The position numbers and the translations under genes are program-made. 64,000 nucleotides of DNA from Alpinimonas psychrophila (GTDB lineage Bacteria > Actinomycetota > Actinomycetes > Actinomycetales > Microbacteriaceae): contig NZ_JACGWU010000002.1 in assembly GCF_014137865.1 (NCBI RefSeq), positions 124,001 through 188,000 of the forward strand, in the 5' to 3' direction. Within the stretch, counting starts at the first letter, position 1. Each line of letters opens with the position of its first letter. The notes beneath the pieces were generated by a model. The model was not told the DNA's origin. It did not search any database and saw only the letters and a list, made by a program, of their open reading frames with translations. This document shows positions 54,011-63,619 of this stretch, piece after piece.

Positions 54011-54610
54011 TCATTTCAGATTATCAAGAAATGCCAAGTCAGATCCAGAGGTGAACGCAGAGCCTATAGATACCGCGCCACAGCCCGACGCCAAAAAATC
54101 GGCTGCATTGTCGGCATCGATACCGCCGGTGGCGACAAACTTAACCGAAGGGAATGGACCATGTTGTGCTCTAACCCACCCCGTTCCTAACTGAGCTGCA
54201 GGGAACGCCTTCAACCAACGAAATCCGCCTCTTACTGCATGAGAAATCTCAGTTGCAGTGGCCACACCAGGAAGATGGGGAATGTCAAGTCGCGCCGATT
54301 CTCTTGCAACGTCGTCAGCGAAACCGGGGGCAACAGTGAACATAGCCCCCAACTGCTTAACTTCGCGCAGTTGCTCCAACGTTGTCACCGTACCTGCGCC
54401 AACGATACGTCCAGAGCTTCTTGCTTCCGCGATTGCTGCTCGGAGCGAGGGGATGGCCACCTCCGACTGCACCGGGATTTCAACCAGATCTATTCCAAGG
54501 GCCCATACGGTCCGGCATAACTCAACCGTACGAGCGGGGGACTGCCCGCGGAAGATTGCCATGATTGGACGTTCTTCGAAATGCTTCGAAAAAAACTCAG
54601 TGCTTTCCAT
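54011..54610 (-). CDS. eda: KDPG/KHG aldolase family enzyme
   Basis: This 199-aa class I aldolase would split 2-keto-3-deoxy-6-phosphogluconate (or the galactonate or hydroxyglutarate analogue) into pyruvate and an aldehyde. With the ATG at 54610, Glu45 (VEIPVQ) and the Schiff-base Lys134 (WLKAFPAAQLG) fall close to the E. coli positions 45 and 133. That ATG has GAGGAG six bases upstream, while the ATG at 54616 is too close to it. The gene overlaps the IclR gene and ends the kinase-IclR-aldolase operon. The stereochemistry of its substrate is not determined. Confidence 0.9.
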   Translation of the reverse strand: MESTEFFSKHFEERPIMAIFRGQSPARTVELCRTVWALGIDLVEIPVQSEVAIPSLRAAIAEARSSGRIVGAGTVTTLEQLREVKQLGAMFTVAPGFADDVARESARLDIPHLPGVATATEISHAVRGGFRWLKAFPAAQLGTGWVRAQHGPFPSVKFVATGGIDADNAADFLASGCGAVSIGSAFTSGSDLAFLDNLK

Positions 54611-55355
54611 ACTCATCTCCTCGCCATCCGAATTCTCGCGAGATTGTCAAGGCGCTTAGACGAAACTCGGGGATTCTTGCTCTCAATACCTCAAGGGGTG
54701 CGACGACTTTTAGCGCGGTCAATGAGACTCCCATGGAGACTTTGCCTCGAGCATCATAAATCGGAAGTGCAACACAATTGATGTAGTCTTCCTTCTCGCC
54801 GTTGTCCTCGGCCCAGCCACGCGAGCGTACTTGCGAGAGTTCTTGCCTCAAAGCCTCTGCTGTCACTATCGTCGTCGAGCTGTATCGCTGAAATGTGGCG
54901 GCGGTAATAGCTTTCTCGCGAACTGCCTCATCGGCAAAAGCTAATACAACTTTGGCAACACTGGCCGAATGGGTCTCTGCACGAAGGCCGATTCGCGACC
55001 CCATCATCATCGTGGCGCCATCTACCTTGTCCACATAAACGACTTCGTCGCCGGTCAGCTGAGCTAAATGAACTGTGTGACCACTTTCTTCAGATAACCT
55101 CTGAACGTGCGGATGCGCTATTGTGCGAGCATCTATCTGATCGATGGCAAGCTGTCCAAGCGCGATGATGCCAAAGCCGGTGACATACGCTCCATTCGAT
55201 AATTGGCGTGCGAACCCCTGCAAGCTAAGGGTCTGCAACAAACGTAACGCGGTTGACTTGTGCACATCGAGGTGTGCGGCAACTTCCGTGAGACTCCTAG
55301 GCGACGTCGAGATAAAGCGGAGAATGTCCAGGGCGCGGACCACAGTTTGCGACAT
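54597..55355 (-). CDS. IclR-family regulator of the sugar-acid island
   Basis: This 252-aa protein has an N-terminal winged helix-turn-helix (SLTEVAAHLDVHKSTALRLLQTLSLQGF, 21-48) and the IclR effector domain with ETHSASVAKVVLAF and DYINCVALPIYDARG. It is sandwiched between the kinase and aldolase genes, 4 bases after the kinase and overlapping the aldolase start. IclR proteins of the KdgR type control hexuronate and KDG catabolism, which suits this context. The twin TTGCA-N5-TGCAA palindromes in the divergent region are its likely targets. Confidence 0.9.
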   Translation of the reverse strand: MSQTVVRALDILRFISTSPRSLTEVAAHLDVHKSTALRLLQTLSLQGFARQLSNGAYVTGFGIIALGQLAIDQIDARTIAHPHVQRLSEESGHTVHLAQLTGDEVVYVDKVDGATMMMGSRIGLRAETHSASVAKVVLAFADEAVREKAITAATFQRYSSTTIVTAEALRQELSQVRSRGWAEDNGEKEDYINCVALPIYDARGKVSMGVSLTALKVVAPLEVLRARIPEFRLSALTISREFGWRGDEYGKH

Positions 55356-55359
55356 AGAC

Positions 55360-56331
55360 TCACCAATCTCTTGTGTGACGTATTGCCCGGCCTTGCTGAA
55401 ACCTATCGCCTAGGAGATTAGCGGAAAAAACGTCACTATCCGACCGTTGTGGTGCATCGGTGGTCGACGCAAGGACTCGAGACGCCGCAAGATGTCCAAG
55501 GCTTAAGCGCTCCACAGCGTTTGACCCTCTTAGCATCCCGCTCAACCAGCCGGCAGCAAATGCGTCACCCGCTCCAACGGGATCGAGTATCTTGACTCTT
55601 TTTGCCGGCACGCGGGCCACCTCGTCAGGAGAAAACGACACAGCTTCGATTCCACCGTCTTTAACGACGAGCGTAGATGGCTTATCGATAACTTCGCGGA
55701 CTTCCTCCGCGCTCGACACACCCCAGAGTGCAGAGGCTTCGTCCAAACCTACAAAAACAACATCACTCGCCTGAGCGAGTTCCAAGAGTTCGAAGGCAGG
55801 GTCCCTGTCCCCCCACAACGCTGGGCGATGATTGACATCGAAGCTAACAAGAGCCTCTCCCAGAACTCTGTTGAAAATGAACTCATTAAGAAGTTCGCGG
55901 CAGCTCACGGAGATAGCAGCAGTGATGCCGCTGAGATGGATCGCGCGTGGCGTTGTCCCGTGCAATTCGCTAAACGAACCCGGTCCCATAGTGGACGCCG
56001 CACTACCAGCCCGGTAATAGTAAACCGACGTTCCTTCAGGGTGAGGATCCTTAAAATAAACACCTGTCGGAAAATCTGAGGTTCTTATCACAGCTGAAAT
56101 ATCAACTGAGGCGGCTCTTAATTCCGAACAGATTATGGCTCCAAAAGGATCCGCCCCTAGATACCCAGCCCAGGCGACATCGTGTCCCAAAGCCGCAAGG
56201 ATCAATGCCACATTTGACTCGGCTCCCCCCGGGCGAAGAATGTACTGTGAATCCCCGTCCAAGTGACCTCCTGAAATCGGCGTCACCATCACCATAGTTT
56301 CCCCGATGCAGAGCACTTCAAAAGTTCTCAC
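55360..56331 (-). CDS. PfkB-family sugar kinase (KDG kinase-like)
   Basis: This 323-aa ribokinase-fold enzyme shows PGGAESNVA (34-42), the substrate region YYYRAGSAAS, the FDVNHRPALW segment typical of 2-keto-3-deoxygluconate kinases, and the anion-hole/catalytic motif DPVGAGDAF (250-258, Asp256). It would phosphorylate KDG to KDPG for the aldolase encoded two genes downstream. The start is GTG with GGAG eight bases upstream. It leads the leftward operon and shares its promoter region with the ABC importer. Confidence 0.87.
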   Translation of the reverse strand: MRTFEVLCIGETMVMVTPISGGHLDGDSQYILRPGGAESNVALILAALGHDVAWAGYLGADPFGAIICSELRAASVDISAVIRTSDFPTGVYFKDPHPEGTSVYYYRAGSAASTMGPGSFSELHGTTPRAIHLSGITAAISVSCRELLNEFIFNRVLGEALVSFDVNHRPALWGDRDPAFELLELAQASDVVFVGLDEASALWGVSSAEEVREVIDKPSTLVVKDGGIEAVSFSPDEVARVPAKRVKILDPVGAGDAFAAGWLSGMLRGSNAVERLSLGHLAASRVLASTTDAPQRSDSDVFSANLLGDRFQQGRAIRHTRDW

Positions 56332-56369
56332 GTTCTAAGCTCCAGATCGTTCGGACAAAATCGAATAAA

Positions 56370-56404
56370 TTGCAACATATGCAATATAGTTGCAGAATAT
56401 GCAA
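56370..56404. promoter_or_regulatory. Two tandem palindromes, candidate IclR operators
   Basis: TTGCA-ACATA-TGCAA (56370-56384) and TTGCA-GAATA-TGCAA (56390-56404) are perfect inverted repeats whose centres are 20 bases apart, about two helical turns. A further TGCAA half-site follows at 56410. They lie in the 192-base divergent region between the kinase operon and the importer operon. They are the best candidate binding sites for the IclR protein of this island, possibly as two dimers. Confidence 0.65.
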
Positions 56405-56523
56405 GAGGATGCAATGCTACCACCGAGACAAACCACATCTACCCCTAGTTCCAAAGGGACGGGTTATTTCCGATGGCACCTCTAGGGCTTTCGTCACACC
56501 GCAAATAACAACTAAGGAGATCG

Positions 56524-57789
56524 ATGATGATCAGCTCAACTTCCCGTCGCATGATGGCGGTCGCCGCAGCATTTGCAATAACAACAGCAGGGCTAAGTGC
56601 ATGTAGCACTAGCGCTGACGCAGATGCTAAATCTGCGACCGAAGGTGGAACCCTAGTATTTTCCAACTGGCAGTGGCTAGAGCCGGGAAGGGGGGAAGTC
56701 ATGTGGGAAGCGGTGAATGGGTATGTCACGGACAACCCAAAGGCCGAATTGGTCAAATCAGAGACTGCGTTTGCTCAGTACGCAGACAAGCTCAACACCC
56801 AGTTGGGCGCAGGATCAGGCCCAGACGTCTTTGTTATCGGAGACAGCCAGTTCGTCACTCTCGCTGAGGCCGGTTTGTTGGAGCCTTTGAACAGTTCGGT
56901 GAGTGGTGTAAAGCTAAACGCATCCAACGATTCCATGGTGTTGGAGGGGGATCAACTTGGCGTTACCTGGGATCAGGTCAGTTATGCATTGCTCGGGAAC
57001 AAGATAGTTATGGAACAAGCAGGATTGACCCAAATGCCAACTACTGTGGATGAGCTTATTGCGGCGAGTAAAGCAATTGAAGCAAACGGCGCAGATGGAT
57101 TTGCAGTGCGCCACCAGATGAACGACTTCGGCGGCTGGTATTTCGATTTCCAGGCTTGGCCCTATGGACAAGGTGGCGCTTGGTCTGACGGCGAGAAGCT
57201 GACAATTGACTCCCCCGCAAATGTCAAAGGAGTCTCTGAGTTCAAGAGAGTGATGGAGGCAGGCATAGTGCCAATCGGCGACGACGCTTCCACATTCCGT
57301 ACAAAATTTAAGGAAAACCAACTTGGCTTCACCATTGACAACAGTGGAGCGGCTGCTTCCTTCGCATCCGGGGGTAAATTGACGGGTGCTGATATTCTTT
57401 CGGCACCGCTACCGTTTCCCTTTTCTGGCCAAAATGAACATCTCATTCTTGCAGTGAACGCTAATAGTAAGAACAAAGAGCTAGCAAAGAACTTTGTGTC
57501 ATGGGTTGTGAGCGAGAGTGGGCAGTCGGCACTTCGACCATCTATGGGCGCTAGCACGATGGCGACCAATATTCCGCTTGAACAAGAGTTTGAAACTGCT
57601 AATCCGTGGGCTGCGACTTACCTTGAGAATGGCAGCAAGTCCCGAAGCGTGCTAATCCCTGGATTCGAAACAGAAACTGTTCCGATCATGCGCATCATCA
57701 TGCAGGCCGTTGAGAGGGTCATAGCAGAGGGCCAGGATCCTCAGGCCGCGCTCAGTCAAGCTCAGCAAGAAGCCGAGGCGGCAAACTAG
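56524..57789 (+). CDS. ABC sugar transporter, substrate-binding lipoprotein
   Basis: This 421-aa family 1 extracellular solute-binding protein captures the sugar outside the membrane. It has a lipoprotein signal with lipobox LSAC (Cys27) and typical internal features: GSGPDVFVIGDSQFVTLAEAGLLEPL and aromatic residues (NDFGGWYFDFQAW) likely lining the sugar site. AAGGAG lies five bases before the ATG. It is the first gene of the rightward operon and is separated from the permeases by a strong hairpin, which usually keeps the binding protein more abundant. Confidence 0.92.
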   Translation: MMISSTSRRMMAVAAAFAITTAGLSACSTSADADAKSATEGGTLVFSNWQWLEPGRGEVMWEAVNGYVTDNPKAELVKSETAFAQYADKLNTQLGAGSGPDVFVIGDSQFVTLAEAGLLEPLNSSVSGVKLNASNDSMVLEGDQLGVTWDQVSYALLGNKIVMEQAGLTQMPTTVDELIAASKAIEANGADGFAVRHQMNDFGGWYFDFQAWPYGQGGAWSDGEKLTIDSPANVKGVSEFKRVMEAGIVPIGDDASTFRTKFKENQLGFTIDNSGAAASFASGGKLTGADILSAPLPFPFSGQNEHLILAVNANSKNKELAKNFVSWVVSESGQSALRPSMGASTMATNIPLEQEFETANPWAATYLENGSKSRSVLIPGFETETVPIMRIIMQAVERVIAEGQDPQAALSQAQQEAEAAN

Positions 57790-57807
57790 CAATCCACACT
57801 AAAAGGT

Positions 57808-57842
57808 GCCCGAGGGTGAAGCCGAACAGCTCCCCCTCGGGC
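57808..57842 (+). terminator. Intercistronic hairpin, partial terminator
   Basis: GCCCGAGGG and CCCTCGGGC form a perfect 9-base stem around a 17-base loop, followed by TTCTATT. With no true U-run it is more likely a partial terminator or an mRNA-stabilising hairpin downstream of the binding-protein message. Confidence 0.65.
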
Positions 57843-57854
57843 TTCTATTGAAAG

Positions 57855-58829
57855 GTGCGTTCTATGCCAGTTTTAGTTGAAGATGAAAAAGACGTTGTGC
57901 ACAATTCCAAATCTTCCCCACGAAAAAACCGACTTAAAAGTCATTCAAGAGGATTTAGCCGATGGGCCGGATACTTATTTATTGCACCAGCGATCATATA
58001 CCTGGCTATTTTTCTTCTTGTCCCTTTTGCGCGAGGGATTCAGTTGAGCTTTACCGACTCCGTCTTAGTCAATCCATCCGGTGGCAGTTTCGTCGGGATC
58101 GAAAATTACGCGAACCTTGTCACCAGCGCTCGATTTTGGAACTCTCTTGGAGCAACCCTCACGTACACTGCAACAACCGTATTTTTTTCTATGTTTGTTG
58201 GAACCACAACGGCAATTCTCGTCAATCGGAAGTTTCGGGGCCGCACGATTGTAAGGGCTATTCTTACCTTCCCATACGCCATGCCGTCGGTCGCCGTCAC
58301 CCTGGTCTTCATCTGGATTTACAATCAATCCGGTGGAATTCTCAATCGAACGACCGGGGCTCTTGGCCTGGGAGAGGTCGGCTGGCTAACTGATCCTTCT
58401 TTCGGGATGTTTTCAGTCGTTGCGACAACGGTGTGGAAGGTCTTTCCTTTTGTAATGTTGGTAATGCTTGCTGCGCTCCAATCTGTACCTGAGGAGCTCT
58501 TCGAGGCCGCTCGAGTGGATGGCGCGGATTCATTAAGCACTTTTAGGTCTATTGTCCTGCCACACCTGATGCCGACAATCAGAGTTGTCGCCCTCCTGAT
58601 GACTATTTGGTCAATTAGAAGGTTCGAAATCATTTTCCTACTGACAGGTGGAGGTCCAGTAGAAAAAACGAACACTCTGGTAATCAATATCTACCAACGA
58701 GCCTTCAGCGAACAGCAACTTGGCGCGGCTGCCGCGATTGCTGTTTTGGGTCTCATCCTCTCCCTTGCCGTCACGGTGGTCTTCTTCCTGGCAGAACGTC
58801 GTGAGAACGTGAAAGAAGGAACCTCATGA
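57855..58829 (+). CDS. ABC sugar transporter permease 1
   Basis: This 324-aa inner-membrane permease has six hydrophobic helices. The ABC-permease EAA loop appears as EELFEAARVDGADSLSTFRSIVLPHLMPT. The N-terminal ~35 residues are charged and cytoplasmic, as in UgpA/MalF-like proteins. It forms the translocation pore with the second permease, whose ATG overlaps its stop by 4 bases. Confidence 0.93.
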   Translation: MRSMPVLVEDEKDVVHNSKSSPRKNRLKSHSRGFSRWAGYLFIAPAIIYLAIFLLVPFARGIQLSFTDSVLVNPSGGSFVGIENYANLVTSARFWNSLGATLTYTATTVFFSMFVGTTTAILVNRKFRGRTIVRAILTFPYAMPSVAVTLVFIWIYNQSGGILNRTTGALGLGEVGWLTDPSFGMFSVVATTVWKVFPFVMLVMLAALQSVPEELFEAARVDGADSLSTFRSIVLPHLMPTIRVVALLMTIWSIRRFEIIFLLTGGGPVEKTNTLVINIYQRAFSEQQLGAAAAIAVLGLILSLAVTVVFFLAERRENVKEGTS

Positions 58830-59659
58830 AAACTCGCAGAGTAGCCGTTCGCGCTCTCACCTTCACTTCGCTTTCAATAACTTTGGTGTTCGCGGCTTTC
58901 CCCGTTTACTGGATGATCAACACGATGCTCGCCACGGATTCAGAGCTTTACCAATCCGGGCAATCGTTCTGGGCTCATCTCGAAAGATTCGGCACAATTC
59001 CTTTTCTTCTAAATGATGTGCCAATATTTAAATGGCTCACGAACTCTTCAATCATCGCGTTCGGTTCGACATTCCTCAGCCTGCTTCTGGCGTTGTTAGG
59101 CGCATACGCTCTCAGCCGGTTTAGATTCCACGGGAAGGGTCTTGCTGGATTCCTGCTCTTCTCGACGCAAATGCTTCCCGAGGCATTTCTAGTAGTGCCC
59201 CTCTTTGCGTTGTTTGGAAGTCTCGGCTTGCTGAATGGCCTCTTAGGTCTCGTCATCGCAAATACGACTTTCACAATGCCAGTTGCTCTTTTCATTATGA
59301 AAAGTGCAATCGACAAGATTCCTTATGAAATCGAAGAGTCGGCGCGGATAGACGGCTGTCCTCGTTATGGGCAACTATCAATGATTGTGCTTCCTTTAAT
59401 CCTCCCGAGCGTTGCGGCAGCGGCCGTCATTTCATTCTTTGACGGCTGGAATGAATTCCTCTTCGCAAATACCTTCATATCCGATTCCGAAATATGGCCG
59501 GCGTCGGTTGGGCTTGCTTCTTTCATCGGGCAGTATTCGACTCCACTCGGAAGCGTCATGACTGCGGCCTTTTTGTTCACGCTTCCTGCCGTCATATTTT
59601 TCTTGATAGTTCAAAGACAAATCGTCAGCGGCCTCACCGCAGGCGCCGTGAAAGGATAG
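58826..59659 (+). CDS. ABC sugar transporter permease 2
   Basis: This 277-aa permease is of the UgpE/MalG type, with six helices. Its EAA loop reads EIEESARIDGCPRYGQLSMIVLPLILPS, the docking site for the ATPase. It starts within the stop of permease 1 (ATGA) and ends 3 bases before the ATPase gene, so the importer genes are tightly coupled. The C-terminal FLIVQRQIVSGLTAGAVKG is the standard ending of this family. Confidence 0.93.
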   Translation: MKTRRVAVRALTFTSLSITLVFAAFPVYWMINTMLATDSELYQSGQSFWAHLERFGTIPFLLNDVPIFKWLTNSSIIAFGSTFLSLLLALLGAYALSRFRFHGKGLAGFLLFSTQMLPEAFLVVPLFALFGSLGLLNGLLGLVIANTTFTMPVALFIMKSAIDKIPYEIEESARIDGCPRYGQLSMIVLPLILPSVAAAAVISFFDGWNEFLFANTFISDSEIWPASVGLASFIGQYSTPLGSVMTAAFLFTLPAVIFFLIVQRQIVSGLTAGAVKG

Positions 59660-59662
59660 TCA

Positions 59663-60841
59663 ATGCCAAGCATCACATTCAAGAATCTCAGCAAGTCTTA
59701 CGGCAGCACCCCAATTATTCGCGAATTCACTGCGGACATCGACGACAAAGAATTTCTCGTACTGCTCGGGCCTTCTGGTTGCGGAAAGTCGACAATGCTC
59801 CGCATGATTGCGGGCCTGACCGATATTACCTCTGGCGAATTGCTTTTCGACGGGGAGCTCGTAAACACGCTTGAACCGCGCGCTCGTAATGTCGCCTTTG
59901 TTTTCCAGTCCTATGCCCTTTACCCACATATGACCGTCCAAGAAAACATCGCTTTTCCTCTTATTATGGATCGTTTTAAAGGCTGGTATCACATTCCCAT
60001 ACTCAATTCGATTATGAGACGTGTTCTCGCAAACAGCCCCGATGTCCGCGACCGTGTGACCGAAGTCGCAGAAATGCTCGAGTTGAGGGAGTTGATGAAG
60101 CGGCGCCCGAAAACCCTGTCTGGTGGACAACGTCAACGTGTCGCCGTTGCTCGTGCACTAGTTAGAGATCCTTCTTTGTACCTGCTCGATGAGCCGCTTT
60201 CCAACCTTGACGCAAAACTCCGAACACAGATGCGTGGGGAGATTTCCGCACTATTTAGAAGGGTCTCTAAGTCCTTCGTATATGTGACTCATGACCAAGT
60301 CGAAGCCATGACGATGGCTACCCGCATTATTGTTTTGAATCACGGCGAGGTGCAGCAAATCGGCACCCCCAATGAAATCTATAACAGCCCTTCCAATACC
60401 TTTGTTGCGAGCTTTATCGGAGCACCTGCAATGAATCTAATTCCAGTGACAGTATCTTCTGGTCGAACGGTTATTCGGGATGGCTCCCAGGCGATCAGCG
60501 TCCGATGCGAACAGCCGGACGGTGACTACCTATTGGGCATTCGACCAGAAGTCATAGCTTTGGCAGATGCAGGAACTGCATCCGAGGCTTATGTCACTTC
60601 CTTGGAACACTTGGGGGGCGAAACTGTCATTGGATTTCAATTCAAAAAACCGAGCCAGAGCAACCTCCTTGCCGCTACCGCAGTTTATTCCAATCACTAT
60701 GCGCGAATTCCTGGTCGAATTGAACTCAAACCGGGAAGTGTGCAGGACTTCGATATTAATATCACCGCTGGGGTCTGGTTCGACGAAAAAACCGGGCAAG
60801 CCCTTAACGTCAACTCAGAGGAATTGCAGAGAAAGGAATGA
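59663..60841 (+). CDS. ABC sugar transporter ATP-binding protein
   Basis: This 392-aa ATPase of the MsmK/UgpC type has Walker A GPSGCGKST (36-44), signature LSGGQ (152-156), Walker B YLLDEP (173-178), H-loop His210 and a C-terminal TOBE-like regulatory domain (about 240-385). Between the Q-loop (FQSYALYPHM) and the signature there is an insertion of roughly 20 residues (KGWYHIPILNSIMRRVL, 107-123) absent from standard MsmK proteins. Having its own ATPase makes this importer self-contained. Gaps to both neighbours are 3 bases. Confidence 0.92.
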   Translation: MPSITFKNLSKSYGSTPIIREFTADIDDKEFLVLLGPSGCGKSTMLRMIAGLTDITSGELLFDGELVNTLEPRARNVAFVFQSYALYPHMTVQENIAFPLIMDRFKGWYHIPILNSIMRRVLANSPDVRDRVTEVAEMLELRELMKRRPKTLSGGQRQRVAVARALVRDPSLYLLDEPLSNLDAKLRTQMRGEISALFRRVSKSFVYVTHDQVEAMTMATRIIVLNHGEVQQIGTPNEIYNSPSNTFVASFIGAPAMNLIPVTVSSGRTVIRDGSQAISVRCEQPDGDYLLGIRPEVIALADAGTASEAYVTSLEHLGGETVIGFQFKKPSQSNLLAATAVYSNHYARIPGRIELKPGSVQDFDINITAGVWFDEKTGQALNVNSEELQRKE

Positions 60842-60844
60842 CTC

Positions 60845-61969
60845 TTGGCTTTTTATCAGGACCTCGGGATTAGCACCGTAATCAACGCGAAAGGAACTTT
60901 CACGGCATTGGGGGGTGCCCTTATGTCGGATGAAGTTCTCGCCGCAATGAACGAGGCTGCTCGTTGTTCCATTGACATGCACGAGCTACACATTGCTGCA
61001 GGCAAACGGCTGGCGCAACTCACTCAGAATGAAGCGGCATACGTCACATCCGGTTGTGCTGCCGCCCTGGTATTGGCGGTTCTAGCCATCCGGAATAATG
61101 GCGACCCATCCGGGATTATTTCTTTTCCCGGTCACGCGGAGCGACCTTTTGAAGTTGTCATGCACACGGCACATCGCATCCCATACGATTCCGCGCTGGC
61201 TCTAGCTGGCGCAACGATCCGCCAAATCGGCAATGCTCAGCAAACCTTTGAGTGGGAGTTAGAGGCAGCAATAACCAAGGAAACTGCCGCAGTCCTATAC
61301 GTGCCCGGAACACACCTCGCACAGGTTGCACTGCCGCTTGATGTTGTCGTTGCTATCGCGCACGCCAGAGGCATTCCTGTTGTAGTCGACGCCGCAGCAC
61401 AACTTCCTCCGGTTGAGAATCTCTGGTCCTTTACGCGGGACCAGGGTGCGGATATCGCTGTTTTCTCCGGCGGTAAAGCCCTGGGCGGCCCTCAAGCATC
61501 TGGCCTGATGGTAGGCCGAACTGATTTGATAGAAGCCGCGCGACAGAATGGTGCGCCCTATCAGCGGTGGGCCAGGGCGCTGAAAGTCGGTAAAGAAGAG
61601 ATTGCAGGCCTAATCACCGCCGTATCACGTTTCGTCTCTTTAGACCACAGGGCAGTTCATCAAGACTGGCTGAAGACAGTTCAGAGTTGGCACGCGGCCT
61701 TCGAAGACACTCCTGGAGTAATTGCATCAATCGAACCGACGAATGAAGCGGGTCAGCCAGTTCCCCGTCTACATCTCGGTATCTCCAATCCTGAACGTGC
61801 CCGAAAGGTTTTGGACTTCATAGACGCATCCAATCCTCGTGTAATGGTCCTGCCCGATATGCGCAACGGGCAGCCACATGGGCTCTGGTTGACTCCCGAG
61901 ATTCTCAAAGCTGGAGAGCCAGGGAACGTCCAGAACGTTGTGCTCAGTTCCATAGACCAATCAAAATGA
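60845..61969 (+). CDS. SelA/DgaE-like PLP-dependent lyase
   Basis: This 374-aa fold-type I PLP enzyme resembles the SelA-like family that includes D-glucosaminate-6-phosphate ammonia-lyase DgaE. The PLP lysine is Lys211 in FSGGKALGGPQASGL, Asp182 (VVDAAAQLPP) would bind the pyridine nitrogen, and the start AFYQDLGISTVINAKGT matches the family. It would eliminate ammonia from a 2-amino sugar acid to yield a 2-keto-3-deoxy acid. It starts with TTG 3 bases after the ATPase gene and precedes ridA by 7 bases. It is not a true SelA, as no selenocysteine context exists. Confidence 0.85.
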   Translation: MAFYQDLGISTVINAKGTFTALGGALMSDEVLAAMNEAARCSIDMHELHIAAGKRLAQLTQNEAAYVTSGCAAALVLAVLAIRNNGDPSGIISFPGHAERPFEVVMHTAHRIPYDSALALAGATIRQIGNAQQTFEWELEAAITKETAAVLYVPGTHLAQVALPLDVVVAIAHARGIPVVVDAAAQLPPVENLWSFTRDQGADIAVFSGGKALGGPQASGLMVGRTDLIEAARQNGAPYQRWARALKVGKEEIAGLITAVSRFVSLDHRAVHQDWLKTVQSWHAAFEDTPGVIASIEPTNEAGQPVPRLHLGISNPERARKVLDFIDASNPRVMVLPDMRNGQPHGLWLTPEILKAGEPGNVQNVVLSSIDQSK

Positions 61970-61976
61970 GGAAGAG

Positions 61977-62363
61977 ATGATCAAAAAAGCTGTAACCACT
62001 CTCGCCGCTCCACCACCAACCGGGGCATATAGCCAGGGGATCGCCGGCAATGGTTTCTTCTATACCGCCGGCTTTGGTCCTCAGGATCCCCTTACCGGCG
62101 CCCTCGCTACCAGTGTTGGCGAGCAAACTCGGCAGGTATTGAGGAATATTGAGGCCGTCCTGCAAAGCGCTGGTCTCACGACGGACGATGTTGTCAAGGC
62201 GACGGTGCACCTCCAGGATCTTGAACGTGACTTCGAAGAATATAACTCGTCTTATTCTGAGTTCTTTAAAGAGCCCTACCCTGTTCGAACAACAGTTGGC
62301 TCGCAGCTTAGAGGGATTTTGGTTGAAATAGACGTCGTTGCAGCGTTACCAAAATCTAGATAG
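61977..62363 (+). CDS. ridA: RidA family imine/enamine deaminase
   Basis: RidA proteins hydrolyse the reactive enamines and imines released by PLP ammonia-lyases. The 128-aa sequence has the family opening PPPTGAYSQG (Tyr18), the active-site Arg104 in YPVRTTVGSQL and Glu117 in VEIDVVAAL. Its position 7 bases after the SelA/DgaE-like lyase strongly suggests that it finishes that enzyme's reaction, speeding release of keto acid and ammonia. It may equally be a general protective copy. Confidence 0.9.
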   Translation: MIKKAVTTLAAPPPTGAYSQGIAGNGFFYTAGFGPQDPLTGALATSVGEQTRQVLRNIEAVLQSAGLTTDDVVKATVHLQDLERDFEEYNSSYSEFFKEPYPVRTTVGSQLRGILVEIDVVAALPKSR

Positions 62364-62461
62364 CAACTTTGCCAAATCATCGTAAAGTCATCGCCGCTTC
62401 ATCTCAGCTTGAGGAGCGCGAGTAAGCGATCTCAATTAAACAAAAAGTAAGGGCAGTCAAA

Positions 62462-63619
62462 ATGAAGATCAGATCAGTTCAGGCTATTCCCGCGAGCATT
62501 GCCTACAACCATCGTGAGGTCAGCTTCCAAGTGGCACGCGATGGTGTGTCGGACGTTGTCGTGCGAGTGGAAACGGAAGACGGCACTGTCGGATGGGGAG
62601 AGTCGTGCAGCGGCAGCGACACGGTTTCAATCGTCGCGGCAATAGAAGCGATGTCGGCGTTCGTGGTCGGCCGATCACCGTGGGATGTCGAACGGATGAG
62701 AAAGGATCTATTGCACCATGGACTCTGGCAATTTCGCGAGGGGACAGCCAATTTCGCTTGGGCCGGAATCGACATGGCCCTATGGGACTTGTGCGGTAAG
62801 GACGCTGGTGTGCCGGTCTACAAGCTACTTGGAGGGGCAGTTCGCGACAGCGTCAACTACTTCTACTACCTTTCTTGGGATAATGAAGAAGACATGCGCC
62901 AACAATGCGCGCGTGGCCTTTCCTTGGGGTACGGCGTGTTTTACCTCAAGGTCGGTAGAGATATCGAGGCCGACGTGAAGCGAGTCGCTCTGGTCCGCGA
63001 GATCATCGGCACGAAGCCGTTGCTTCGGTTGGACGCAAATGGCGCTTGGTCTCCTTCCGAAGCCATTTCAAACCTCAGAAAACTCCAAGAGTTTGACATC
63101 GATTTCATGGAGCAACCAGTGAAAGAAAGCCCCCCTGAATTGATGCGGCGGGTTCGGGATAGTGGAATCATGCCGATTGCAGCCAATGAAGGATTGTGGA
63201 CAGAGGCGGATGCCATAAGTCGAATCCTCGCGGAAGTAGCGGACGTCTATTGTTTCAGTCAGTATTGGGTCGGCTCGTTGCGTAATTTCCAGTTCATCGG
63301 TTCGCTTGCCGGCCGACAGGGCGGAACGGTTTGCAAGCACACTCATGGTGAATTTTCTATCGCGGCAACTGCCGCTCACCACGTGCTCCTGACACTGCCG
63401 AAGATCGTGGAAGGCAACCAACAGACAAGCGCCCACATGACCGCCGATCTCTCTGAGGTTCCGATTAAGGACGGCCCTAAATGGGGTTTGCCAATTGCCC
63501 CTGGACTGGGCGTTGAAATCGACCAGGACCAACTTGCTGATGCTTCCGCTAGGTACCAGAGAGACGGTCAGTTTCTCCCTTATCAGTTGGACGACCTCCG
63601 AGCGGGGTGGCGGCTGTGA
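62462..63619 (+). CDS. Mandelate racemase/muconate lactonizing enzyme family protein
   Basis: This 385-aa enolase-superfamily enzyme abstracts a proton next to a carboxylate; sugar-acid dehydratases and racemases are the common activities. Metal ligands are Asp191 (DANGAW), Glu217 (MEQPV) and Glu243 (ANEG). On the second strand the usual KxK motif reads Tyr161-Leu-Lys163, so only one lysine is present. His293 and His295 in KHTHGE may be the opposite base. It lies 98 bases after ridA with its own ribosome site, and ends the recognisable island. Dehydration of an aldonate to KDG is the best guess. Confidence 0.87.
   Translation: MKIRSVQAIPASIAYNHREVSFQVARDGVSDVVVRVETEDGTVGWGESCSGSDTVSIVAAIEAMSAFVVGRSPWDVERMRKDLLHHGLWQFREGTANFAWAGIDMALWDLCGKDAGVPVYKLLGGAVRDSVNYFYYLSWDNEEDMRQQCARGLSLGYGVFYLKVGRDIEADVKRVALVREIIGTKPLLRLDANGAWSPSEAISNLRKLQEFDIDFMEQPVKESPPELMRRVRDSGIMPIAANEGLWTEADAISRILAEVADVYCFSQYWVGSLRNFQFIGSLAGRQGGTVCKHTHGEFSIAATAAHHVLLTLPKIVEGNQQTSAHMTADLSEVPIKDGPKWGLPIAPGLGVEIDQDQLADASARYQRDGQFLPYQLDDLRAGWRL

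Follow-up and report, generated by a model that had tools for sequence, protein, structure and literature searches.

The lyase-RidA pair and the pocket of the lyase

The window studied here is a 64,000-nucleotide stretch of the genome of Alpinimonas psychrophila (contig NZ_JACGWU010000002.1, positions 124,001 to 188,000). It carries, on the plus strand, a gene for a pyridoxal 5'-phosphate (PLP) enzyme of the SelA/DgaE superfamily, here called the lyase, followed by a gene for a RidA-family protein. Both open reading frames (ORFs) were confirmed, the first with a TTG and the second with an ATG start, and 7 bases separate the stop of the one from the start of the other, as an earlier note made from the sequence alone had described. 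The pair forms the end of six consecutive genes on this strand, the first four of which encode an ATP-binding cassette (ABC) importer (56524-60841), within a block of ten genes (54011-63619; Table 1). Judging from the pocket of the lyase and its company in other genomes, we consider it fairly probable that this cluster would deaminate an unphosphorylated amino sugar acid and phosphorylate the product afterwards.

The earlier description of the PLP enzyme as SelA/DgaE-like held for superfamily and fold but not for membership of the DgaE family. The protein scored 194 bits against TIGR01437 (cut-off 385.3) and 171.2 against NF047797 (cut-off 600), falling far short of both NCBIfam models of DgaE, and 72.1 bits against the SelA model TIGR00474, also below cut-off (267.9). 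Its AlphaFold2 model (predicted local distance difference test, pLDDT, 94.2; predicted template modelling score, pTM, 0.92) was nearest to the structure of Cap15 (8t7j; Z 42.2, 1.9 Å, 356 residues); DgaE (7lc0) gave Z 39.1 and 2.5 Å over 356 residues and SelA came next with Z 26; a Foldseek comparison was in line with a fold like that of Cap15 and DgaE. No fold-type III enzyme was among the 50 structure matches listed for the model, a list that is no test of that point. By sequence and model, the lyase is a member of the SelA/DgaE/Cap15 superfamily and not DgaE itself.

The pocket of DgaE has been described with the substrate docked manually, its 6-phosphate lying at R301, R332 and R346 and its carboxylate at R226; His-163 acts as proton donor, avoiding enamine release, and His-162 lies near O6 (PMC9529869, whose 'Lys-217' has the number 213 in the chain as counted here). 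Alignment of the lyase with DgaE showed that the PLP lysine is kept (K211) and that R225 stands at the place of the carboxylate arginine. The three phosphate arginines correspond to R308, L336 and E352, two of the three thus being replaced, and T156 replaces His-162. That two of these arginines are missing speaks for a substrate without a phosphate group. H157 fell on His-163 in three alignments and beside a gap in a fourth; the proton donor is probably kept, in which case the substrate of RidA would be an imine and not an enamine escaping from the lyase.

The aligned sequence of Cap15 retains the whole arginine triad, and Cap15 activity is phosphate-dependent although the chemistry has no evident need of the ion (PMC6384614), in keeping with the triad as a place where phosphate binds. 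Cap15, from capuramycin synthesis, is a PLP monooxygenase-decarboxylase, and it differs from the proposed lyase in its O2 chemistry on glycyluridine, its need for phosphate and its biosynthetic cluster (8t7j; PMC6384614, PMC7497351). With Cap15 ahead of DgaE as the nearest structure, the window enzyme might itself be an O2-dependent enzyme of that kind, or an aldolase or racemase acting on a beta-hydroxy-D-amino acid, with RidA clearing the imine. We regard this as very unlikely: Cap15 keeps the triad and serves an antibiotic pathway, whereas the partners in the window are KDG-pathway genes (KDG, 2-keto-3-deoxygluconate). Relatives of the lyase with RidA, kinase and aldolase genes also occur in Clostridia and in metagenome-assembled genomes (MAGs) of Oscillospiraceae (L102, L084), groups that are usually anaerobes.

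RidA and arginine type among relatives

The own genome holds six RidA-family genes, and RidA adjoins two of its three SelA-like loci (the window locus and C2:77895-79031). The chance of at least two of three such loci lying beside RidA is about 9e-5, a rough estimate that assumes about one gene per kb and was made after seeing the data; the pairing is more than chance. Arthrobacter sp. H5 (L032) keeps the pair (lyase 65% identical, RidA 67%), as do G010 (L022; 62-64% and 54%) and G464 (L127; 57% and 63%), the last belonging to another family of the same phylum. The G010 lyase gene (L022 9248-10400) is broken after residue 291, apparently by a frameshift, whether through real decay or through an assembly error. 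Among 99 genomes, the own included, G010 was the only other one with a lyase homologue of at least 60% identity; the sole other genome of the genus (G001) gave merely a 30% match over 126 residues. On a tree of 73 rows, the window, L032, G010 and L127 formed a clade (Shimodaira-Hasegawa-like approximate likelihood ratio test, SH-aLRT, 96), all four members of which have RidA, KDG-kinase-like and KDPG-aldolase-like genes (KDPG, 2-keto-3-deoxy-6-phosphogluconate), with the lyase preceding RidA in every one. Judged by annotation and record titles, lyase and RidA also occur together in Spirochaetes, Clostridia, Chloroflexi, Alpha- and Betaproteobacteria and Halobacteria.

Relatives were collected as the best 80 of 555 matches from a scan of genome contigs with the patterns VDAAA[QE] and GGK..GPQ; a single-protein scan of genome contigs with the lyase found no relative. 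None of these best 80 has an arginine at the position of R332 (L088 ends before that site), which is partly selection because the patterns favour window-type members. The kinase and the aldolase were both present in 4 of the 80 loci, all 4 with RidA; of the remaining 76, RidA was present in 6 (Fisher p 1.3e-4). All 11 RidA matches, from 10 loci, lay downstream of the lyase, 7 of them within 1.5 kb.

For 109 loci the residues at the three arginine positions were typed: the best 80 of 555, 22 plasmid or E. coli stretches, the window, and six genome stretches (L021, L023, L024, L025, L127, L131). Excluded were the frameshifted L022, the second G010 locus (L026), L128-L130 (G243, G143, G129) and the second SelA-like copies in L021, L038, L059 and L109. 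RidA lay within 5 kb of the lyase in 0/10 loci with the full triad (R-R-R), in 8/8 with R-R-C and in 17/91 with other residues, counts that are uncorrected for kinship; taken together, lyases without the full triad had RidA in 25/99. When the count was restricted to the 78 loci flanked by 4 kb or more on each side, the figures were 0/10, 8/8 and 15/60 (R-R-R against the rest, Fisher p 0.029, kinship again uncorrected, and each of the R-R-R and R-R-C types may be one clade). The six RidA query proteins came from counted loci (window, L021, L024, L025, L028, L031); without these loci the counts were 0/10, 6/6 and 13/87. Within the stretches covered, a Rid product was annotated in none of the 8 R-R-R loci that carry annotation (L131 and L147 carry none), with plasmid gene tables being incomplete.

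The settings of the two types were also compared. The R-R-R loci of E. coli, C. difficile, E. faecalis and L. paracasei have genes of the phosphotransferase system (PTS), and that of Streptomyces lies in a biosynthetic setting. The R-R-C loci of Aminobacter, Paracoccus and Sinorhizobium are ABC-fed and include a deacetylase; that of Rhizobium is ABC-fed, that of Paraburkholderia has a GntP permease, and L149, L151 and L152 are unannotated. Haloarchaeal loci were divided, with Rid in L140 and L142 and none in L029, L030 or L141. The triad-intact dgaE genes in the C. difficile and E. faecalis records (L135, L144) stand with PTS, MupG-family and deacetylase genes, neighbours hinting at a phosphorylated amino sugar acid from the cell wall. 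Among 396 genomes of the phylum of the window, L131 (G332) was the sole match above the TIGR01437 cut-off; its triad is intact, and no RidA lies within 5 kb.

We tentatively suggest that the DgaE superfamily has two branches distinguishable by pocket, a reading that we hold to be possible but doubtful: members with the triad would take 6-phosphates and do without RidA, and phosphate-free members acting on sugar acids would release the imine of the unphosphorylated acid, with RidA as a dedicated catalytic partner. If true, RidA would be a real pathway step and not a general safeguard, and the missing function of OngD, a RidA-family protein discussed below, would be explained. One alternative, that RidA compensates for a lost proton donor, was ruled out, as the equivalent of His-163 is kept in 12 of the 25 RidA-bearing loci. 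Of the earlier proposal that RidA clears an enamine or imine, the imine part is favoured and the enamine part is not supported, because H157 is probably kept and RidA does not track loss of the histidine. RidA could also be a bystander, a general imine hydrolase that came by chance into the operon; Rid genes do cluster with several PLP enzymes (PMC4433059), and most loci with other residues lack RidA. That the gene is absent beside every R-R-R lyase and present beside every R-R-C one, that its order after the lyase is preserved across four clade genomes, and that OngD is required in vivo in the analogous ong route (PMC9537276) make this quite unlikely.

Partner genes and the proposed route

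Table 1. Genes of the block at 54011-63619 of the window, with Pfam support
Feature	Coordinates	Strand	Support
KDPG/KHG-aldolase-like protein, 201 aa	54011..54616	-	PF01081 121.4 bits (gathering 27.8)
IclR-family regulator, 252 aa	54597..55355	-	PF01614 133.4 bits
PfkB sugar kinase, KDG-kinase-like, 323 aa	55360..56331	-	PF00294 144.1 bits
ABC importer solute-binding protein (SBP), 421 aa	56524..57789	+	PF01547 100.3 bits
ABC permease 1, 324 aa	57855..58829	+	PF00528 89.5 bits
ABC permease 2, 277 aa	58826..59659	+	PF00528 52.7 bits
ABC importer ATPase, MalK/UgpC type, 392 aa	59663..60841	+	PF00005 116.5 bits
SelA/DgaE-superfamily PLP enzyme, putative 2-amino-2-deoxy-aldonate ammonia-lyase, 374 aa	60845..61969	+	Pfam SelA 64.3 bits (gathering 22.8)
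RidA-family imine hydrolase, 128 aa	61977..62363	+	PF01042 (Ribonuc_L-PSP) 99.8 bits (gathering 27.3)
Enolase-superfamily (MR/MLE) enzyme, probable sugar-acid dehydratase, 385 aa	62462..63619	+	PF13378 130.1, PF02746 62.5 bits

The ABC importer genes are spaced by 65, -4 and 3 bases, the lyase follows after 3 bases, and the enolase-superfamily gene starts 98 bases after RidA. The kinase, regulator and aldolase genes (54011-56331) are divergent, with spacings of 4 and -20 bases. As the earlier note had it, an ABC importer and a KDG-kinase-like gene are near the pair and no PTS component is among the ten block proteins, to which the PTS search was confined within this genome. The block has a GC content of 52.2%, compared with 59.7% in bases 1-54000, and the GC content at third codon positions (GC3) is 0.50-0.61 in its genes and 0.62-0.78 in seven housekeeping genes. 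Because both values are low, the block looks horizontally acquired, and we consider that this catabolic block was probably gained in that way. It is flanked by a FemAB-like gene and Tad-pilus-like genes, named by eye.

By Pfam family and catalytic arginine, the RidA protein is an imine hydrolase of RidA type: R104, the catalytic arginine, falls in a column that is arginine in 11/11 aligned Rid proteins (for the role of this residue see PMC4433059), and the score against the TIGR00004 subfamily was marginally under the cut-off (104 bits; 106.25). The aldolase-like protein scored 142.3 bits against TIGR01182 (cut-off 156.05) and matched the solved KDPG aldolase 1wa3 with E 3e-31. KDG and KDGal (2-keto-3-deoxygalactonate) kinases were the best NCBIfam matches of the PfkB kinase, under cut-off (132.7 vs 440; 129.7 vs 400), and the solved structure closest to it by sequence is the 2-keto-3-deoxygluconate kinase 1v19 (E 6.8e-44). 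The best NCBIfam match of the regulator was KdgR (135.4 vs cut-off 275), and the importer ATPase scored 397.1 against NF008653 (cut-off 432); the SBP is 59% identical over 304 aa to that of the G464 cluster. The enolase-superfamily enzyme reached no NCBIfam equivalog cut-off. It has relatives beside similar lyases in L127 (58%) and L040 (52%) that share its YLK, LDxNGAW, EQP, AANEG and HTHGE motifs, and among solved structures it matches 2pgw best, an entry with the bare title 'muconate cycloisomerase'; sequence does not fix the substrate of the window enzyme.

Gene sets around related lyases extend this picture. L127 holds the aldolase, kinase, an HpcH/HpaI aldolase, lyase, RidA, enolase, IclR and a partial SBP, as well as a galactonate dehydratase above its cut-off and two D-aminoacylase-type amidohydrolases, one of which matches D-aminoacylase 1m7j (2e-106) and the deacetylase of N-acetyl-D-glucosaminate (GlcNAc1A) PpOngB (9kb1; 1e-83). 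Arthrobacter sp. H5 encodes a natural fusion of 873 aa (L032 5534-8155) that joins a D-aminoacylase-type deacetylase (1m7j 3.5e-77, PpOngB 1e-58) to a KDG-kinase-like domain, the latter 45% identical to the window kinase. A Brevinema MAG (L081) has aldolase, kinase, IlvD/EDD dehydratase, amidohydrolase, lyase and RidA genes, and by annotation Haladaptatus (L140) has a PIG-L deacetylase, glucose 1-dehydrogenase, MR/MLE enzyme, lyase and Rid hydrolase. Together, these gene sets suggest a pathway that starts from N-acyl amino sugar acids and leads to KDG.

The route that we hold to be fairly probable would begin with import by the ABC transporter of an unphosphorylated 2-amino-2-deoxy-hexonate, either D-glucosaminate or an epimer; D-glucosaminate is a guess, as epimers would fit equally well. 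K211 of the lyase would form the aldimine, the alpha proton would be removed and the C3 hydroxyl eliminated, and a 2-imino (or enamine) acid would be released. RidA, with R104 holding the carboxylate, would hydrolyse the imino acid to KDG and ammonia. The PfkB kinase would then convert KDG to KDPG, and the KDPG aldolase would complete the route by yielding pyruvate and glyceraldehyde-3-phosphate. The enolase-superfamily enzyme probably contributes to this pool of KDG by dehydrating a sugar acid that has no amino group. That the lyase precedes phosphorylation, as previously proposed, remains the most likely order on sequence grounds, given the two absent arginines, the ABC importer, the KDG-kinase-like gene, the deacetylases of relatives and the lack of RidA beside triad-intact lyases.

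The order could instead be reversed, with the PfkB kinase phosphorylating imported D-glucosaminate and the lyase using the 6-phosphate as DgaE does. The lyase is homologous to DgaE and retains R308, and this order has been put forward, as an untested proposal, for Natrarchaeobius, a chitin user whose gene set is similar (PMC12343721). We nevertheless find it unlikely, as His-162 and two of the three phosphate arginines are replaced, the closest solved kinase by sequence acts on KDG, and the KdgK of the ong pathway phosphorylates KDG well and GlcNAc1A poorly (PMC9537276).

Several observations weigh against deamination before phosphorylation with RidA as a partner. R308 is kept, and H157 suggests protonation on the enzyme, weakening the case for a strict need for RidA. 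Neither the kinase nor the lyase reaches an NCBIfam equivalog cut-off. RidA is lacking within 5 kb in 74 of the 91 loci with other residues, the RidA counts carry no correction for kinship, and on the 73-row tree the association of kinase plus aldolase with RidA amounts to 3-4 independent contrasts, none opposite and too few for significance. In G096, sister to the clade of the window, RidA and the kinase and aldolase were not found. The R-R-R locus of Priestia has a gluconate symporter and a sugar kinase instead of a PTS, so that importer type is not strictly tied to the triad. No deacetylase is among the ten block proteins, and the only match in the own genome was incomplete and lay close to the paralogue locus; GH18 and LPMO_10, which would have spoken for chitin as the source of the substrate, were not found in it either.

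Known counterparts and the paralogous loci

Glucosaminate ammonia-lyase of Pseudomonas and Agrobacterium (EC 4.3.1.9) converts unphosphorylated D-glucosaminate to KDG, and RutC is a name used within the Rid family. The nearest counterpart of the proposed route is the ong pathway of Pseudoalteromonas prydzensis, in which deacetylation is followed by deamination of unphosphorylated D-glucosaminate (GlcN1A) to KDG and then by KdgK; its genes encode OngB (structure in PMC12017989), the fold-type III enzyme OngC, the RidA-family OngD, needed for growth on the oxidised monomer of chitin and with its role left open, and KdgK (PMC9537276). The earlier note had presented the reordering as a variant of the D-glucosaminate route; on the published account, deamination before KDG phosphorylation with an essential RidA-family gene is already known (PMC9537276). 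Shared features are the deamination of an amino sugar acid before the KDG kinase, RidA-family and KDG-kinase-like genes in the cluster, and a D-aminoacylase-type deacetylase, the last in the relatives L032 and L127 and not in the window block. The systems differ in that OngC is of fold-type III and the window enzyme is a SelA/DgaE relative, in uptake by an SSS symporter rather than an ABC importer, in an OngB deacetylase without counterpart in the window block, and in the enolase-superfamily gene of the window, none being named in the available text of PMC9537276. What is added here is a SelA/DgaE relative in the place of OngC, the altered pocket, and the pattern linking pocket and RidA; by analogy, the window cluster would be a non-homologous variant of the known route. 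An unrelated PLP enzyme with a like RidA partner suggests that the need for RidA stems from the product imine and not from one enzyme.

The comparison with DgaE is one of homology with a changed setting. The window lyase shares with it the superfamily, fold, PLP lysine, carboxylate arginine and a KDPG aldolase as next step; DgaE differs in PTS uptake that yields the 6-phosphate, a full arginine triad and the absence of RidA within 5 kb of the 10 triad-intact loci, and the lyase lies far below the DgaE family cut-offs. The triad pattern may serve as a sequence test that separates 'DgaE family' members with phosphorylated substrates from those with a RidA partner. Chitinase clusters of Natrarchaeobius contain DGA, GAD, GDH, IclR and RutC, and their families (DgaE-like, galactonate-dehydratase-like, IclR, RutC) are nearly those found here; the clusters are archaeal, and their authors suppose phosphorylation to be the first step and interpret RutC as a transcriptional repressor (PMC12343721). 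A cluster of R. eutropha with kdgK and a putative 2-amino-2-deoxy-gluconate hydrolase, next to which eda lies, has been read as glucosaminate degradation (PMC3734047).

Two further SelA-like genes of the own genome lie outside the window, in the stretch L021. One (C2:68785-69471; L021 5786-6727) is an ORF without the middle stretch that holds the PLP lysine and looks degenerate. The other (C2:77895-79031; L021 14857-16050) has its own RidA and is further accompanied by IclR, phosphotriesterase-like, fumarylacetoacetate-hydrolase-like, dehydrogenase-like and amidohydrolase genes. L021 gave no match to a KDG kinase or an aldolase, and this locus may perhaps encode a related route to a different product.
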